A stretch of 57,462 nt of DNA from an uncultured Siphonobacter sp. (GTDB lineage Bacteria > Bacteroidota > Bacteroidia > Cytophagales > Spirosomataceae), in assembly GCA_913775095.1 (NCBI GenBank), contig CAJYIW010000010.1, forward strand, positions 1 through 57,462, written 5' to 3'. This document shows, piece after piece, positions 42,834-57,462 of the stretch. The notes beneath the pieces are model-generated. The model searched no databases. It saw only the letters and a list, made by a program, of their open reading frames with translations, and had not been told where the DNA came from. The stretch's first letter is position 1, and every line of letters begins with the position of its first letter. The position numbers and the translations under genes were made by a program.

Positions 42834-42858
42834 AGAATCCGGGACATTCCCGGATTCT
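42834..42858. terminator. Bidirectional terminator between the dehydrogenase and ROK genes
   Basis: A perfect 11-bp stem (42834-42844 with 42848-42858, three-base loop) lies between two convergent genes; its right edge touches the ROK stop codon. Confidence 0.7.
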
Positions 42859-44063
42859 TAAATCAGCGAAAGAACGCGATCCCTGACCAGCAGACAGGCT
42901 CCAATGATACCAGCATGCTCGCCCAGGCTGGACATCTTTACCTCCGTATCTTTGTTGACCAGACTCAGCGAATATTTGTTAAGAGCCGTCTTGACGGGTA
43001 ACTGGAGGTATTCCTGCGTCTGGGCCAGACTTCCGCCCAGAATCACCAGTTCCGGATTAAAGACGTTAATCAGAAAGGCAATGCCGCGACCAATGTTTTC
43101 ACCGAGTCTGGCAATCAGCTCAATGGCCAGCACGTCGTCGTTCATCGCGGCCGAAATGATGTCCTGCATCTGAATAGTCTCCGGCGATAGCCCTTTACCG
43201 GTCAATACCGAAGTAGAACCTTCCTGAAGCTTTTGCCGGAACATGCGGGTCAATGCCCACCCCGATGCTTCCGTTTCCAGGCAACCTTTTTTGCCACAGT
43301 GGCAAATGATTTCGTTGTCAAAAATGGGCACGTGTCCCAGCTCACCCGCGTAACCGGACTTGCCGTAATACAATTGTCCGTCGATCAGAATGCCCACCCC
43401 AATGCCATAATCCAGATTCAGGAAGAACACGTTCTGTTCCTTTTCTACAACGCCGGAACAAAACTCTCCGTAGGCCATCGCCCGGGAATCGTTTTCCAGA
43501 AACACCCGAATGCCGATCTTCTTCTCAATGACCTGACTCAGCGGGCGTTCTTCAAAGAAATAAAAGCTGTAGCTGTATCCCGTTTCGTAATTAATCCGTC
43601 CCGAAAGGTTAATGCCGATGCCCAGAATTTTAGTTCGTGGGACGGTTAACTCCTCAATAAAAGCATTGATGTGATCACAAAGCGTATCGAGCGACGATTG
43701 CGTGTTATCGAGAACGAAGGGAAGATGCTCGGTTACTTTAAGCAGGTTCTTCTGCAGGTCCAGTAAGCCGATGTTGATATGCGTCTGTTTGACATCTACC
43801 CCGATGAAAAACGCCGAATGAGGTACAACGCCATACAGATTAGGTTTACGCCCACCCGATGAGTCAATTTTGCCGTAATCCTGGATGAGGCCTTCGGTGA
43901 TCAACTCATTGACAACTGAGGTAACCTTGGGTACACTAATGGACAATTCCTTTCCTAATTCAGGAATGATGGCGTTACCAACGTTGGCAAAATAACTGAG
44001 GATGCTACGTTTAGGGTCGAAACTTTTACTGGAAGCTTTGGGCGACTCGACTAGTTTAGTCAT
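42858..44063 (-). CDS. ROK-family transcriptional regulator (NagC/Mlc type)
   Basis: A 401-residue protein with an N-terminal winged helix (about 18-65) and a ROK kinase-fold sensor domain (GVDVKQTHINIGLLD onward). The zinc site is intact: His244 in GELGHVPIF and Cys254, Cys256, Cys261 in CHCGKKGCLE. The HTH marks it as a regulator rather than a sugar kinase. NagC/Mlc relatives sense glucose or N-acetylglucosamine-type ligands. It probably controls the 27.7-42.8 kb cluster, whose first gene has an AT-rich inverted repeat upstream. Confidence 0.93.
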   Translation of the reverse strand: MTKLVESPKASSKSFDPKRSILSYFANVGNAIIPELGKELSISVPKVTSVVNELITEGLIQDYGKIDSSGGRKPNLYGVVPHSAFFIGVDVKQTHINIGLLDLQKNLLKVTEHLPFVLDNTQSSLDTLCDHINAFIEELTVPRTKILGIGINLSGRINYETGYSYSFYFFEERPLSQVIEKKIGIRVFLENDSRAMAYGEFCSGVVEKEQNVFFLNLDYGIGVGILIDGQLYYGKSGYAGELGHVPIFDNEIICHCGKKGCLETEASGWALTRMFRQKLQEGSTSVLTGKGLSPETIQMQDIISAAMNDDVLAIELIARLGENIGRGIAFLINVFNPELVILGGSLAQTQEYLQLPVKTALNKYSLSLVNKDTEVKMSSLGEHAGIIGACLLVRDRVLSLI

Positions 44064-44349
44064 CGTAATTTTTGATTCAACAGGCTGATTTAAACCGGAG
44101 CATTCCGGCTAATCAGAAGATGGCCTGTCACAAACAGACTGGACACAATCCCTTAAAAAAAGAAACAAAGCAATGTAGTCAGAATTATGTTTTTCTACTA
44201 GCAGAAACGCATTTTATCCGCAGAATCAGAACAGTAATCAGGTTAAATAAACGATTGAAAACAGATGTTACTTCATACGTACGGGTCACCTCCCCCCTCC
44301 CCTATTGTATTCATCTGTTCCACTACTACGATTACACGAACGGTCAAAA

Positions 44350-45728
44350 TAAGGAACCAAAATAAGAACCATTTTAGATTCCTATATTGGTTCCTTATAA
44401 ATCATTAGGGATTGATTATCAGATCTCTGTTGAAAGGTATCAGGCGGGTAACTTCTCTACTTTACCTAAAGCATGGACTCTATATCACCGCTCACCAGCT
44501 CTATTTAATTATCCTCGAAATCAGGAATTACTTTCCTGAGGCCTGTCCAGCGTTAGTAAGAGGTTTTGCCGAAGGTTCAGGTTAGCCTGGAACTGCCTCA
44601 GAGTCCGGCTTGCCTTTACCAGAGACCAGAAACATCGCTCACAAGTCTATTGATTAGGAATGCCATGATTGGTGCATACGAAACCTAAATCAGTTCCGTA
44701 GTAAGAACTTATACTGAAACTTATTCAGGTTCTTAAATTTTCAACTACGTAATGGCTGGTTATTATGAGAGGGTATGGTTTCGATTCAGGCAAGCGGGTA
44801 AGTCACGCCTGCTTACTTTTCTGCAAATTAACTTTTCCATTCTCGAAATAGCTTTTGAGGAGTTTTCAGTGAAACCTGATTAACTTATTTAGGTTCTAAA
44901 TCTGGAACCTATAATAGAACTGAAATAAGTTCTTTAATTTTCAATTACTTTAGGGCTGTTATCGTGAGGACGATACCGTTTCAGGTAAATCATGCTCCAT
45001 TGCTTTCCATCCGGTTAATTCTTTTACTCCTGAAAAGGCTTTAGAGAAACGTTTCAATGAATCCTTATTAAGAACTATTTCAGGTTCTTAATGAAGAACC
45101 TGATTTTTAAAGTGATGATTTACGAATCAATGGTAATATCGACTGATTTATTACTCTAGACTGCATTCCAGCGGGTGCCCCATTGGCTATCCTTATCAGG
45201 TTCTTTATTTAGAACCTGAAATAGTTCCAATTTAAGAACTTAGACTTCTTTAGCAAGTGCAGTAGGTTCCCAATTTCTAAAGGCCTGAATAGTCTTGCGT
45301 GAAGAAATCATAGAAAAAACAAACCCATACGAATTTGTCAGAGGGGTTGAAAACCGGAAGCTATTTAAGAATCTGAATTAGTTCCATTTCAGGAACCTGT
45401 TCAGGGCCCGTAGAAAAAGAAACGAATCCCCAAGTATAAGCAACCTCATAGGTAGGTAGTCTTTATTTTTATGCCTGTCTGTAGTTATACCATGGCTTCT
45501 GAACGCATTCACGATGCTGAGTCATCAGAACCAGATTAAGAACTAGTATTGGTTCTTAATCTGGTTTCATATAAGAAGCTCAACAGCGGCAGGTATTTAC
45601 TTGTTTAATACCCTCTAGCTGAAATTTCTGATTTTATTAGCTAGGTTTGTTCCCAAAGAAATGGTTCTGGAATCAGACCTGTTTCAGGAACCATTTTAAG
45701 AACTATAAAACAACCTATATCAGAACCA
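44350..45728. repeat. Array of GGTTC/GAACC repeat clusters, candidate partition centromere (parS)
   Basis: At least eight clusters of GGTTCTTA / TAAGAACC-type motifs lie near 44375, 44720, 44915, 45085, 45220, 45380, 45545 and 45695, with a degenerate one near 44580, spaced about 135-205 bp. Most clusters are inverted pairs; the clearest is a perfect 15-bp inverted repeat (45529-45543 with 45552-45566). Flanks are also partly repeated (AATTTTCAA.TAC at 44736 and 44936). The array ends at the parA start codon and contains no credible gene. Type Ib partition systems keep their centromere in this position; the role is inferred. Confidence 0.7.
45642..45649 (+). promoter_or_regulatory. Candidate -7 element for parA
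   Basis: TAGGTTTG matches the Bacteroidota -7 consensus TAnnTTTG exactly, 80 bp before parA and inside the repeat array. No good -33 partner is seen, so this is tentative. Overlap with the repeats would let the partition proteins repress their own transcription. Confidence 0.35.
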
Positions 45729-46391
45729 ATGATCATCACTGTAGGGGGTACAAAGGGCGGAAGTGGGAAAACCACTGTAGCTACGAACATCGCTATTTTT
45801 CTTGCGGAGCAAGGCCGGAAGGTTCTATTGGTAGATGCGGATGAGCAGGAAACTACCGCTGATTTTACGGAATTCAGACACGACACTTTCGAAGGGCAGG
45901 TTGGCTACACGCTTGTGAAACTGAACGGAGATAAAATTTATACGTCCATTCGGGATCTGTCGGAAGTATTCACGGATGTGGTTATCGATACAGGTGGCAG
46001 GGATACGATCTCACAGCGGGCAGCGTTGACCGTCTCCGATGTCTATCTGGTGCCTTTCGTACCCCGTAGTTTTGAAATGTGGACCCTGGCGAAAGTAGAA
46101 AAACTGGTGAAAGAAGTGAAGCTTATCAATCCCAAGCTGATGGCTTTCTCTCTGCTGAACCGGGTCGAAGCCCGAAGCCAGTACGTCGAGTCCTGGACGG
46201 ATTACCTGAAGGCTTCCGAAGACATTGAATTTATAGACGCCCAACTGGGCGATCGGGTGGTTTACAGCCACGCGGCCATTCGCGGGATGGGAATCAATGA
46301 ATACAAACCCCGGGATGTGACGGCCATCCGTGAGTTTTCGGATTTTTTACAAAAACTGTTCGTTCGTATTCCTGCACCAATCCAATCTTGA
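45729..46391 (+). CDS. parA: ParA-family partition ATPase
   Basis: A 220-residue ATPase of the ParA/MinD superfamily. The deviant Walker A box is GGTKGGSGKTTVATN (signature lysine present), Walker A' is LLVDADEQ and Walker B is DVVIDTGG. It is short and has no N-terminal helix-turn-helix, as in type Ib plasmid systems. It moves plasmid copies apart by patterned binding to the nucleoid. A small second gene follows after 1 bp and the repeat array precedes it, completing a centromere-parA-parB arrangement. Confidence 0.92.
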   Translation: MIITVGGTKGGSGKTTVATNIAIFLAEQGRKVLLVDADEQETTADFTEFRHDTFEGQVGYTLVKLNGDKIYTSIRDLSEVFTDVVIDTGGRDTISQRAALTVSDVYLVPFVPRSFEMWTLAKVEKLVKEVKLINPKLMAFSLLNRVEARSQYVESWTDYLKASEDIEFIDAQLGDRVVYSHAAIRGMGINEYKPRDVTAIREFSDFLQKLFVRIPAPIQS

Positions 46392-46392
46392 T

Positions 46393-46728
46393 ATGGCAAA
46401 ATCTAAATTACAGGTAAAGATGCCCTCTAAAGAAGTTCCAAGTTTCGACGCGAAAGCACTGGAGTTCATTCACAAGGGCGGAAGTATTTCTACGGAGGCA
46501 GAACCTAATCACGGAATCCTGAAAGGGGAGGAGTCCACCGGAACAGATGCTGATCCCCTGAAGAGCTTTACTCTTCAGTTCCATAAGAGCGAGTTAGATA
46601 GCATCCAGCGGATTGTAAAAGCAAGGAGTACGCGGCTGGAAAAGTTGTCCATTCGGAAATACCTGCTCAAAGCCATTTACGCTCAACTGGAGAAAGATCT
46701 GAAGGAATTAGACCAGGTTTTTCAGTAA
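46393..46728 (+). CDS. Small ParB-like centromere-binding protein (ribbon-helix-helix type predicted)
   Basis: A 111-residue protein encoded immediately after parA; the ATG at 46393 is used, as the longer frame from 46330 lies inside parA. The first ~55 residues are polar and probably disordered, a place where partner proteins contact ParA. The C-terminal half, SFTLQFHKSELDSIQRIVKA onward to a final basic/acidic helix, has the strand-helix-helix pattern of ribbon-helix-helix DNA binders. Identification as the centromere-binding protein rests on position, size and this fold pattern, not on a recognised family. Confidence 0.7.
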   Translation: MAKSKLQVKMPSKEVPSFDAKALEFIHKGGSISTEAEPNHGILKGEESTGTDADPLKSFTLQFHKSELDSIQRIVKARSTRLEKLSIRKYLLKAIYAQLEKDLKELDQVFQ

Positions 46729-46800
46729 AACCTCGCAACGCCTGTGGTCGGAAGAAGAACAAAGGGATAGTATGGGTGGTGTTTCAGGGTGTATAAAGCT

Positions 46801-47173
46801 TATTACCACAAAATGCATGAGGTTTGACTCCGCTTACAGCGGTAGGTTGAGGGTCAGGAATACTAATTCCTAACCCTCAACTAAAACAACAAATTGCATG
46901 AGATTACGCAATGGATGGCTATAACTGTTACATAAGCACTGCTGATTAGAAGGAAATTATACTTTTCATCAAATCATAAAACCACAAATTGCATGAGATT
47001 TCGGGCATAAGCAGGACAAAATCCGTAAAATATAAAGACTCAGGTACTTTCAATGGCTTGATAATCAGGTCTTTATCTTCGTCCTGCTGCATAAAACCAC
47101 AAAATGCATGAGATTACTTAACTTACTGATTTTTAGTTAGTTAAGAACTTATAATTACCACAAAATGCATGAG
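46801..47173 (+). repeat. Five dispersed iterons (origin, left group)
   Basis: Five direct copies of the iteron core ACCACAAA(T/A)TGCATGAG start at about 46805, 46886 (ACAACAAATTGCATGAG, one change), 46981, 47096 and 47157, all in the same orientation. The gaps are 61-115 bp. The central base varies between T and A. They match the clustered copies nearer rep, so all are expected to bind the same initiator. Confidence 0.85.
46846..46881 (+). terminator. Hairpin after the parAB genes
   Basis: A 16-bp stem with one mismatch (46846-46861 with 46866-46881, four-base loop) lies about 120 bp after the parB-like stop codon and between the first two iterons. It probably ends partition transcripts before the origin; no U-tract follows. 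Confidence 0.5.
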
Positions 47174-47239
47174 CTTTCCTCACTAATCAAGTTTTGGGGA
47201 AGGTTATACCGATTAAGCGGAGCCCAGAAATCTTTTCCG

Positions 47240-47475
47240 ACGAAGTACGTATATAAATAATTGTTATATAATATTGATTATCAGCAGAATAGATCTTAAA
47301 TAACCCCTTTGGTATTTATAAACTAAAAACTTAGTTACAGGCCTCCCTTTTTTCTTTTCTGATTTACTTTTTTCCTTTCAAAAACTAGTGTGCGGCGTAG
47401 CCGACACAGGCCGAAAAAGAGCTGGGCCAATCAATTGATAAAATTGATATTATATTAATTGATTGATTGCTGGCG
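47240..47475. other. AT-rich segments of the origin, candidate unwinding element
   Basis: Two AT-rich stretches (47247-47340 and 47430-47465, the latter with repeated ATTGAT units) lie between the two iteron groups and next to the DnaA box. This is where the strands would be expected to open. A C/T-rich stretch follows at 47343-47380. Confidence 0.5.
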
Positions 47476-47484
47476 TGTGGATAA
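47476..47484 (-). promoter_or_regulatory. DnaA box
   Basis: TGTGGATAA is the exact complement of the consensus DnaA box TTATCCACA. It sits beside AT-rich DNA and 44 bp before the clustered iterons, the usual layout of an iteron plasmid origin needing host DnaA. Confidence 0.8.
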
Positions 47485-47523
47485 CTTACTTATAGTTCTG
47501 TTTATCAGACGTTTAAAAATCGC

Positions 47524-47645
47524 TATTACCACAAATTGCATGAGGTATTACCACAAATTGCATGAGGTATTACCACAAATTGCATGAGATTTGACCTGTG
47601 CTATTACCACAAATTGCATGAGGTATTACCACAAATTGCATGAGG
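47524..47645 (+). repeat. Five clustered iterons (origin, right group)
   Basis: Five near-identical 22-bp direct repeats with the core ACCACAAATTGCATGAG occupy 47524-47545, 47546-47567, 47568-47589, 47602-47623 and 47624-47645. Two helical turns separate successive copies except for a 12-bp break after the third. This is the expected binding array for the Rep_3 initiator encoded just downstream. Confidence 0.93.
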
Positions 47646-47687
47646 TTGTAGGTTTTCAAAATCAGAAAAACTACATATGGTTTTTTA

Positions 47688-47698
47688 TTGTGGTAATA
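47688..47698 (-). promoter_or_regulatory. Inverted half-iteron in the rep promoter region
   Basis: TTGTGGTAATA is the exact complement of the left half of the iteron (TATTACCACAA), in opposite orientation and about 40 bp before rep. In other iteron plasmids Rep dimers bind such inverted half-sites to repress their own gene, while monomers bind the iterons. Confidence 0.6.
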
Positions 47699-47739
47699 GT
47701 TGTTAGTTTTACAATTCCGTGGAACCTTCTTACCTGCGT

Positions 47740-48699
47740 ATGAAAAGTTTAATCAACATCAGCAACAGTCTTAATCTCACCAAGCAGGAATTTACGACCG
47801 TAGAAAAGCATATCCTGCTGATCACGCTGCTGCATCTGAAAAACAGGCAGGGATTCGGAGTCAACATTGATGAAAAATTAATCGTTTCTTTTCCGGCCAC
47901 GGATATCAAAGAAACCAATCTGGTACGTATCAAAGAGTCGCTGGACAAAATCACCTCCCGGAAAATCTTCTTTGATGAATCGACCAGGAGTAAGGACTAT
48001 TTCGGGTATATCGTCCCTTTCACCTATGCCAACTACGAGGGCAAAGTAGGGGCCAGTTCGACAATTACGGTGGAGCTCAACAGCCGCTGTAACAAGCTAT
48101 TTCTGGAATTGGCTAACGGCTATACCACGACGGATCTTCAGACCATCCTGAGCCTCAAAAGTGTGCATGCCATTCGGATGTACGAGCTTTTGATGATGTA
48201 TCGCAAGAAGAACGAGTGGATCATTGAAATAGACCGTTTAAAGGGCTTGCTGGGGCTCAACCTGACTGCCTACAAAAGCTTCACGGATTTTGAAACCCGA
48301 ATTTTAAAATATACGCAGAAAGAACTTTCCGAACACTGTAGTTTACTCTTTGATTGGGAAATAGCTGCGAAAGAACGCAAGAAAATTACGGCTCTTAAAT
48401 TCACGATCCAGGATGTAGAAGGAATGGACCGGGAGCTGCTGGCGGAAGAAACGGGCAAAACGATTGATTACGTGAGTTCTTTGGGAGACCTTGAAATTGC
48501 TTCTAAAGTCAGAGCGGCCTGTTTGAAATACACGTTTTCGGAAAAGCAAATCCAGTGGATTCTGGAGTCCAAAGAACGAATCAGCGAATTGATTCGAATT
48601 GACCTGATCGTTGAGGATAAGATTGAAAAAGGAAAGCCCCCCCGGAATCGAACTAAATACGTAGCGAAAAGTCTGGGACTGGATCAGGTTAAATGGTAG
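47740..48699 (+). CDS. Rep_3-family plasmid replication initiator
   Basis: A 319-residue initiator of the Rep_3 superfamily (two winged helices). N-terminal domain about 1-125 (NLTKQEFTTVEKHILLITLL), second domain about 130-235 (SLKSVHAIRMYELLMMYRKK, then YKSFTDFETRILKYTQKEL), the usual DNA-binding winged helix. It would bind the iterons immediately upstream and load host replication proteins. The ATG at 47740 is used; a GTG at 47719 would add seven residues but is very close to the half-iteron and promoter. It is the only replication gene in the window. Confidence 0.92.
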   Translation: MKSLINISNSLNLTKQEFTTVEKHILLITLLHLKNRQGFGVNIDEKLIVSFPATDIKETNLVRIKESLDKITSRKIFFDESTRSKDYFGYIVPFTYANYEGKVGASSTITVELNSRCNKLFLELANGYTTTDLQTILSLKSVHAIRMYELLMMYRKKNEWIIEIDRLKGLLGLNLTAYKSFTDFETRILKYTQKELSEHCSLLFDWEIAAKERKKITALKFTIQDVEGMDRELLAEETGKTIDYVSSLGDLEIASKVRAACLKYTFSEKQIQWILESKERISELIRIDLIVEDKIEKGKPPRNRTKYVAKSLGLDQVKW

Positions 48700-56693: not shown

Positions 56694-57462
56694 ATGGTGG
56701 ATTACGTGTACTATCAGATCGAAGATTTTATCGGAGATGAAGCCTTTCGTCGATGGGTACTTAAGCCTACCGCTGCCGATACCATTTTCTGGGAAAACTG
56801 GTTACAAACGCATCCGCAACGGGCTGAACGCGTCTGGACGGCCCGCCAGTTTGTTGAAGCCATGCAGGAAGCTCAGGAAAACCTTTCCGATAGCGATTTA
56901 AAAGAACAGGTCAACCGTATTACCGAAGCCCGTCTGTCCCGTAAAGCCGATCAGCCCTTACCCACTTCACCTCATTTCTGGAAAAAAATCCGTGTTGCCG
57001 CTGCTGTAGCATTAGTAGCGGGTGTGGGAAGCCTATTTTATTACATCAGTCCATCCACGTTAAAAACTCAATTCTCTGAAACGGCTCCTGCCACCGAACT
57101 CCGCACGATTGCCAACCGCACGTCATCGCCACAGTTGCTGACGTTGATGGATGGCAGTCAGGTAAAACTTGAACCAGGCAGTCAGCTTCGATTCCCTCAA
57201 TCGTTCGATGAAAAGCAACGCAGTGTGTATCTGGAAGGGGAAGCGTTCTTTGAAGTAACCCGGAATCCGGAGCAGCCCTTTGTGGTGTATGCTCACGAAC
57301 TGGTCGCTAAAGTACTGGGAACCAGCTTCACGATTCGTTCCTACGAAAAGAACGTACAGGTCATGGTACGTACCGGAAAAGTAGCCGTGTTTACTCAGTC
57401 GCCTCAGCCTAAAGCGAAACCCCTTATCCTGACTCCCAACCAGCAGGTTGTCTTTTCAGAGA
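56694..57462 (+). CDS. FecR-family anti-sigma factor, N-terminal part (gene continues at base 1)
   Basis: This is the 5' part of a 353-residue inner-membrane anti-sigma factor; the last 127 bases here are the terminal duplication, so the unique part ends at 57335 and the frame continues at base 1 to 420. A cytoplasmic N-terminal domain of about 95 residues that would hold the sigma factor is followed by one membrane helix (about 99-119, VAAAVALVAGVGSLFYYI), then the periplasmic FecR domain (LLTLMDGSQVKLEPGSQLRF, YLEGEAFFEVTRNPEQPFVV, KVLGTSFTIRSY). DUF4974 lies in the other part. Its start is 86 bp after the sigma factor stop codon. Confidence 0.93.
   Translation, partial: MVDYVYYQIEDFIGDEAFRRWVLKPTAADTIFWENWLQTHPQRAERVWTARQFVEAMQEAQENLSDSDLKEQVNRITEARLSRKADQPLPTSPHFWKKIRVAAAVALVAGVGSLFYYISPSTLKTQFSETAPATELRTIANRTSSPQLLTLMDGSQVKLEPGSQLRFPQSFDEKQRSVYLEGEAFFEVTRNPEQPFVVYAHELVAKVLGTSFTIRSYEKNVQVMVRTGKVAVFTQSPQPKAKPLILTPNQQVVFSE
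57336..57462. repeat. 127-bp terminal direct repeat identical to bases 1-127
   Basis: Every base from 57336 to 57462 equals bases 1-127. The repeat lies inside the fecR coding sequence, and joining the ends restores a normal 353-residue protein, so it is an assembly overlap of a circular molecule rather than a biological repeat. Confidence 0.95.

Follow-up and report, generated by a model that had tools for sequence, protein, structure and literature searches.

Directly upstream of parA in the window (the whole stretch of DNA analysed, one complete contig of 57,462 bp), short DNA boxes are arranged in eight clusters of about four boxes each, with an exact step of 12 bp within every cluster. 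The most likely role of this array is that of the centromere in a type Ib-like ParA/small-ParB system. The earlier note had suggested a possible new centromere type for this interval. Its core, a centromere or ParB-binding array, is the best-supported reading, favored because related parA genes carry equivalent clusters. The words "new type" are too strong, since a small ATPase gene followed by a small ribbon-helix-helix (RHH)-like gene, with direct and inverted repeats upstream, is the published type Ib arrangement, as laid out in excerpts of the source (PMC5016525).

Gene context of the array

The two ends of the window share an exact 127-bp overlap (1-127 = 57336-57462), which makes a closed circle very likely; the replicon is probably a closed circular plasmid of 57,335 bp (57.3 kb). 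The interval that holds the array, 44350-45728, is flanked by a ROK-family regulator gene on one side and by parA on the other (Table 1). The parB candidate begins with an ATG 1 bp past the parA stop. Beyond this operon lie ten iterons, all upstream of the Rep_3 gene, with a spacing of 61-115 bp for the dispersed five and 22-34 bp for the other five. The ACCACAAAWTGCATGAG iterons are presumed to form the replication origin, separate from the box array; as an aside, these replication repeats of the plasmid are partly dispersed too. No match reaching the gathering score was returned by an Rfam scan of 44000-47800.

Table 1. Features of the partition and replication region of the window.
Feature	Coordinates	Strand	Description
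ROK-family regulator gene	42858-44063	-	unrelated gene left of the array
Cluster 1	44353-44394	.	boxes 44353, 44365, 44377 (weak), 44389; 12-bp grid; tails <=0.0018
Cluster 2	44680-44733	.	boxes 44680 (weak), 44692, 44704, 44716 (weak), 44728; 12-bp grid; tails <=0.0060
Cluster 3	44892-44933	.	boxes 44892, 44904, 44916, 44928; 12-bp grid; all four strict
Cluster 4	45059-45100	.	boxes 45059 (weak, tail 0.014), 45071, 45083, 45095; 12-bp grid
Cluster 5	45199-45240	.	boxes 45199, 45211, 45223, 45235; 12-bp grid; all four strict
Cluster 6	45356-45397	.	boxes 45356 (weak), 45368 (weak), 45380, 45392; 12-bp grid; tails <=0.0040
Cluster 7	45527-45568	.	boxes 45527, 45539, 45551, 45563 (weak); 12-bp grid; tails <=0.0023
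TAnnTTTG match, TAGGTTTG	45642-45649	+	at -87 from parA; cluster 8 starts 14 bp beyond
Cluster 8	45663-45704	.	closest to parA; boxes 45663, 45675 (weak), 45687, 45699; 12-bp grid; tails <=0.0065
Lone off-grid box	45722-45727	-	beside the parA start; 23 bp from the preceding box
parA	45729-46391	+	220 aa; deviant Walker A KGGSGKTT at residues 9-16; without N-terminal DNA-binding domain
parB candidate	46393-46728	+	111 aa; IxKGGS motif in N-terminal half; C-terminal half ribbon-helix-helix-like
Ten iterons ACCACAAAWTGCATGAG	46801-47651	.	five dispersed (46801-47180) and five near-tandem (47524-47651)
Rep_3-type replication initiator	47719-48699	+	PF01051, PF21205

Boxes on a 12-bp grid

The repeat array that had been recognized in the sequence upstream of parA is real, and its box enrichment and 12-bp grid make it more orderly than first described. 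The degenerate box RGTTCY/RGAACY has 28 strict copies in 44300-45728, compared with a mean of 3.71 and a maximum of 12 in 5000 dinucleotide-preserving shuffles, and with a mean of 3.72 and a maximum of 9 in the 39 other tiles of the window. Pairs of boxes in the array fall at lags of 12 (14 pairs), 24 (9 pairs) and 36 bp (5 pairs); at most one lag-12 pair is present in any of the 5000 shuffles, and none is seen in the 39 other tiles. It is this degenerate form of the motif that is enriched. The exact 8-mer GGTTCTTA is not strongly so: it occurs four times in the interval and once elsewhere in the window, and 6 of 100 shuffles reach five copies.

The orientation of the boxes within the clusters is mixed. 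Because the box is nearly palindromic, its orientation hangs only on the central TT/AA, and the appearance of inverted pairs is a by-product of such a box sitting on a grid; "mostly inverted pairs", the original description, thus captures only part of the pattern. A scoring matrix derived from 26 boxes of the array was moved stepwise along the grid. Where a cluster has fewer than four strict boxes, weak grid boxes outside the matrix (44377, 45059, 45356, 45368, 45563 and 45675; background tails of 0.0006-0.014) bring it up to four, and the other four-box clusters are hardly extended by the scan. Cluster 2 has a fifth box, and a doubtful extra box is found for cluster 6 at 45404 (tail 0.015). 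The matrices for this array and for the second array described below derive from the arrays that they score, except for the weak boxes named as unused.

From start to start, the clusters are 327, 212, 167, 140, 169, 159 and 136 bp apart, with cluster 6 counted from 45368; the first of these distances exceeds the 135-205 bp recurrence initially given. Of the "eight or nine" clusters proposed from the sequence, eight stand. A ninth at 44577-44594 was considered and dropped, as its boxes score at background level (tails of 0.64 and 0.08). The array stops at the parA start, in agreement with the first description: the last grid box, 45699-45704, is followed by the off-grid box at 45722-45727 and by the parA ATG at 45729.

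The ParA and candidate ParB proteins

The window ParA is a small Walker-type protein, matched by Pfam AAA_31/CbiA from residue 2-3 and without an N-terminal HTH domain; against NF041546 (ParA_partition) it scores 142 bits, under the model cut-off of 180. The 111-aa product of the parB candidate gave no significant Pfam, NCBIfam or PDB match in sequence and profile searches. It is not the large HTH/CTPase ParB of type Ia: its sole Pfam hit at E <= 1 is to an unrelated family and is insignificant (E 0.25). PF01402 (RHH_1) had no match across the 29 genomes searched.

To characterize the family, 41 ParB relatives encoded downstream of their own parA were aligned, most of which share an IxKGGS-like motif. 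In the C-terminal half, a strand of alternating inward-hydrophobic and outward-variable polar residues is followed by two amphipathic segments, the second of which begins with Ser in 25 of 28 aligned domains. A two-row AlphaFold model of the window ParB places helices at 65-78 and 87-109 after an extended stretch (pLDDT of 71-80 there, 55.8 overall). The overall confidence of the models is low, and a Foldseek search returned five hits, every one with E > 2. The sequence pattern and the model suggest a ribbon-helix-helix fold, which we infer rather than assign because the profile and fold searches were not significant; centromere binding by the candidate is likewise a prediction. In viral contigs, no relatives of the window ParB or of three other ParB queries were found, and two further ParB queries each matched one contig, the same for both.

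The same grid at related par loci

ParA searches gave matches in 11 of 59 genomes at E <= 1e-30, and 38 of 222 family genomes matched at E <= 1e-50, with the window genome counted in both. Among plasmid records, 1947 of 72,556 matched at E <= 1e-5, and 18 were analysed from the 40 of these 1947 matches that were listed. One locus in the ParA scan of genome contigs, with 34 residues matched, was left out. Family genomes carry ParBs identical to those on plasmids of Runella rosea, Dyadobacter fanqingshengii and Spirosoma rhododendri, which puts the window genome in the company of Spirosoma relatives. Four loci (L027, L058, L060 and L064), whose ParBs are identical to those of L028, L042, L044 and L043, respectively, were removed before the counts for the alignment, box learning, covariation, promoter and grid tests; the lag analyses still include both L027 and L028 as one duplicate pair. 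These two par loci lie about 14.6 kb apart on one 27.8-kb contig (G008:C3), which is possibly a dimeric or misassembled plasmid.

Box seeds were used for 40 of the 45 distinct loci (not for L040, L062, L063, L067 and L072), and 36 of them gave a box; L035, L037, L042 and L051 had too few sites for a learned box. The box identities of the relatives are fitted, because the seeds were picked after the ParB strands and boxes had been compared. The lag analyses and the window enrichment test were run without learned seeds, and the test with wrong grids and shuffled DNA reuses the fitting procedure.

In the 500-bp regions that precede 29 parA genes, the window included, the top direct lags are 12, 24, 48 and 36 bp, with a mean z of 3.7 for lag 12. 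Lag 12 also leads in a control region that runs from the parA start over 1000 bp (z of 3.0), because the signal gathers at the parA-parB junction, and in a second control, 1.5-2.5 kb upstream of parA, it is still the top direct lag, weakly (mean z of 1.2). Per 100 bp and locus, the lag-12 signal amounts to 8.0 in the 100 bp before parA, 4.6 and 3.6 at the parA-parB junction, 3.5-4.0 in the 300 bp after parB and mostly 0.2-1.3 within parA. Under the same fitting, 86 clusters in 35 of the 40 loci are found on a grid of 12, 52 each on grids of 11 and 13 (which share the one-base tolerance), 12 on a grid of 10 and 3 on a grid of 14; grids of 9 and 15 give none in the 40 loci, and shuffled DNA gives none.

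Among the 36 loci with a learned box, 26 have a cluster of three or more boxes in the 450 bp upstream of parA, 18 have one at the junction (these 18 belong to the 23 loci with a parA-parB gap of at least 40 bp) and 22 have one after parB; the window locus has no grid cluster after parB. At most of these loci the clusters are few and near the operon, with zero to three upstream. The 82 clusters of the relatives span four grid steps in 29 cases, five in 14, six in 13, three in 11 and more in 15. The expectation that the motif array recurs beside related parA genes is therefore borne out in architecture, as equivalent clusters, and not in the letters of the motif.

Farther relatives vary in their lags. 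The leading lag in the 250 bp before parA is 11 bp in Methylobacterium nodulans (z of 6.7), Chondrocystis (z of 4.9), M. radiotolerans (z of 3.2) and Cardinium (z of 2.5). Upstream of parA in Bealeia, lag 24 is present (z of 3.4) with little lag 12, and at a Sphingobium locus neither lag 11 nor lag 12 is observed. Lag 12 is weak at two Deinococcus loci (z of 2.1 and 1.8), one of which has an AACGTT cluster after parB. Separately, 14 AGTTGTA boxes follow one another on a 12-bp grid directly after parB on a Hymenobacter monticola plasmid (L049:5060-5223); this run is a site of the same kind in compact tandem form.

The distribution among relatives also bears on the possibility that the boxes are bound by another protein, such as the Rep initiator, a host nucleoid protein or the ROK regulator (42858-44063). 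Although the array adjoins the ROK-family gene too and the iterons lie on the far side of the operon, this is very improbable: grid clusters accompany parA at loci of several genera with differing annotated neighbors, and the iteron is unrelated in sequence to the boxes.

Possible promoter and operator

TAnnTTTG is the -7 promoter consensus of Bacteroidota. Within 250 bp upstream of parA, 24 such sites are present in 20 of the 45 loci, about three-fold the 7.2 expected by base composition. A sigma-70 scan of 44200-47000 gave two sites, fewer than in shuffles and none close to parA. The TAnnTTTG enrichment, together with the match at -87 in the window and the start of cluster 8 just 14 bp past it, would suit an array that is purely a transcriptional operator of parAB, the centromere being elsewhere. 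Such a role for the whole array is nonetheless improbable, as seven more clusters reach out to 1.38 kb upstream of parA, beyond what a repressor would be expected to need, and 22 of 36 loci have a post-parB cluster, at a distance from the promoter.

A second dispersed array in the same genome

Contig C15 of the same genome carries another par locus, the ParA of which is 56% identical to the window ParA. Upstream of this parA, boxes of the AGACGTCT type form nine clusters over 1.56 kb, with a grid of 11 bp. Strong hits are separated by lags of 11 (20 pairs), 22 (14), 33 (9) and 44 bp (4), and the clusters hold 4, 4, 4, 4, 2, 4, 3, 3 and 5 boxes (background tail <0.005). Their starts are 79-227 bp apart, plus one gap of 492 bp, and only three of the nine are visible on a 12-bp grid. 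The dispersed architecture is common to the two loci although letters and step differ. In a cross-count over the four par loci of this genome, RGTTCY, AGACGTCT and AACGTTA give grid pairs solely at their own locus. The fourth locus, on contig C22, has no grid pairs of its presumed box, yet lag 12 is second of 55 there; upstream of its parA (L037), lag-22 repeats with ATTGCA are strong and lag 12 is weaker. No ParB gene was found downstream of this parA; the likely reason is that only about 430 bp of contig remain beyond it. What proved unusual is the 12-bp quartet module and its eight-fold dispersal, and the widely dispersed upstream form is so far seen at two loci, the window locus and the C15 locus, both in one genome.

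These two arrays bear on how much of the window array is functional. One or few clusters are evidently enough at most of the 36 loci (zero to three upstream, 26 with one within 450 bp), which is compatible with a centromere and operator made of only the promoter-nearest cluster or clusters, the distal ones acting as a sink for ParB, to set its free level or incompatibility, or being redundant copies. This division of the array is unlikely: none of the eight window clusters has lost the exact grid or its set of about four boxes, and nine clusters are maintained at the C15 locus, which suggests selection on each.

Box letters and the ParB strand

Several box types are found among the loci: AGTTGT (the largest group), AACGTT, GATATC, AGGTGT, AGTACT/AGCGCT, GACGTC and others. 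The window box RGTTCY resembles the AGTTGT group, and the window ParB strand KSFTLQF resembles the KSFTFKI of that group; the residues that face outward on the strand seem to track the box type. For ParB pairs with an identity of 0.35-0.50, box similarity is 0.10, 0.09, 0.24 and 0.51 for zero to three shared contact residues, the last value resting on 7 pairs, 5 of them from one group. Similarity rises with contact matches at an identity of 0.50-0.70 too, and not below 0.35. Over all 741 pairs with less than 50% identity, the Spearman coefficient is -0.08 for contacts, compared with 0.23 for inward positions and 0.30 for overall identity. A strand-box recognition code, which had looked suggestive, was dropped on the basis of this mixed covariation test.

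Discussion

Taken together, the array is probably explained by one scheme. The interval would serve as parS, the centromere, for plasmid partition by a type Ib-like ParA/ParB system, in which a single ParB dimer (the 46393-46728 product) contacts each RGTTCY/RGAACY box through the β-strand KSFTLQF. The 12-bp step would set about four ParB dimers side by side in each cluster, and this quartet may be the functional unit that contacts ParA on the nucleoid and sets off its ATPase activity. Eight such quartets, spread over 1.4 kb, would load about 32 dimers per plasmid, and cluster 8 would also repress the parAB promoter. In excerpts of earlier work, the type Ib RHH centromere-binding protein doubles as operon repressor (PMC5016525), and RHH ParBs are stated not to spread, their fit with the diffusion-ratchet model being called unclear (PMC9499535). 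Since an RHH ParB that is unable to spread loads few copies, we propose that the plasmid sets out eight quartets because its ParB cannot spread along DNA. For pSM19035, the same excerpt reports that efficient activation of the ParA ATPase takes at least four contiguous sites and that active arrays are mixed in orientation (PMC9499535); by analogy, the window clusters of about four would fit this four-site minimum.

A broader hypothesis is offered tentatively, as possible rather than probable. The quartet on an 11- or 12-bp grid may be a conserved quantum of ParA activation, which some replicons multiply to eight or nine over 1.4-1.6 kb in place of spreading, and co-resident loci may keep this grammar and change the letters, avoiding cross-talk. 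The window plasmid and the C15 locus suggest a natural answer to the diffusion-ratchet question, namely many discrete quartets, and module number, spacing and box letters are each variable in such systems. With the spacing rule kept and the box changed across relatives, these loci form a data set for RHH strand-DNA recognition and for plasmid compatibility. If the hypothesis is true, changed box letters let one cell run several such par systems without cross-talk.

RHH-ParB centromeres with direct and inverted repeats are already known; the new features are the grid of 11 or 12 bp, the quartets, and the upstream repetition of these quartets at two par loci within a single genome. Such an arrangement was not found described in the available parts of the open-licence literature searched, and it may still be published.

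Known systems share parts of this arrangement. Whereas the parH site of TP228 ParF-ParG is one continuous site plus an operator, the window has eight dispersed modules; ParG was not listed for the window ParB or its profile in the Pfam and PDB sequence searches. In pB171 par2, centromere regions flank the operon on both sides. Relatives with clusters before parA and after parB resemble this layout, unlike the window, which has its grid clusters before parA and none after parB. An excerpt gives the order in a pB171 par2 construct as parC1, parA, parB, parC2 (PMC4270457). The putative type Ib parS of the Psychrobacter plasmid pP62BP1, as excerpted, is also made of short repeats between promoter and parA in a small-ParA/RHH system, but its seventeen identical 8-bp repeats are adjacent and compact (PMC3346939). 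The likeness to pSM19035 parS/omega, as given in excerpts, lies in several separate sites of short, mixed-orientation repeats, bound by an RHH protein there and predicted to be so here; the parS sites of pSM19035 overlap promoters, and four contiguous repeats are the functional minimum there (PMC9499535, PMC5016525). Its heptads are contiguous, with a 7-bp step and sites that comprise 9, 7 and 10 repeats and occur twice each, whereas the window array takes a 12-bp step, with about four boxes per cluster and eight clusters in a row upstream of parA.
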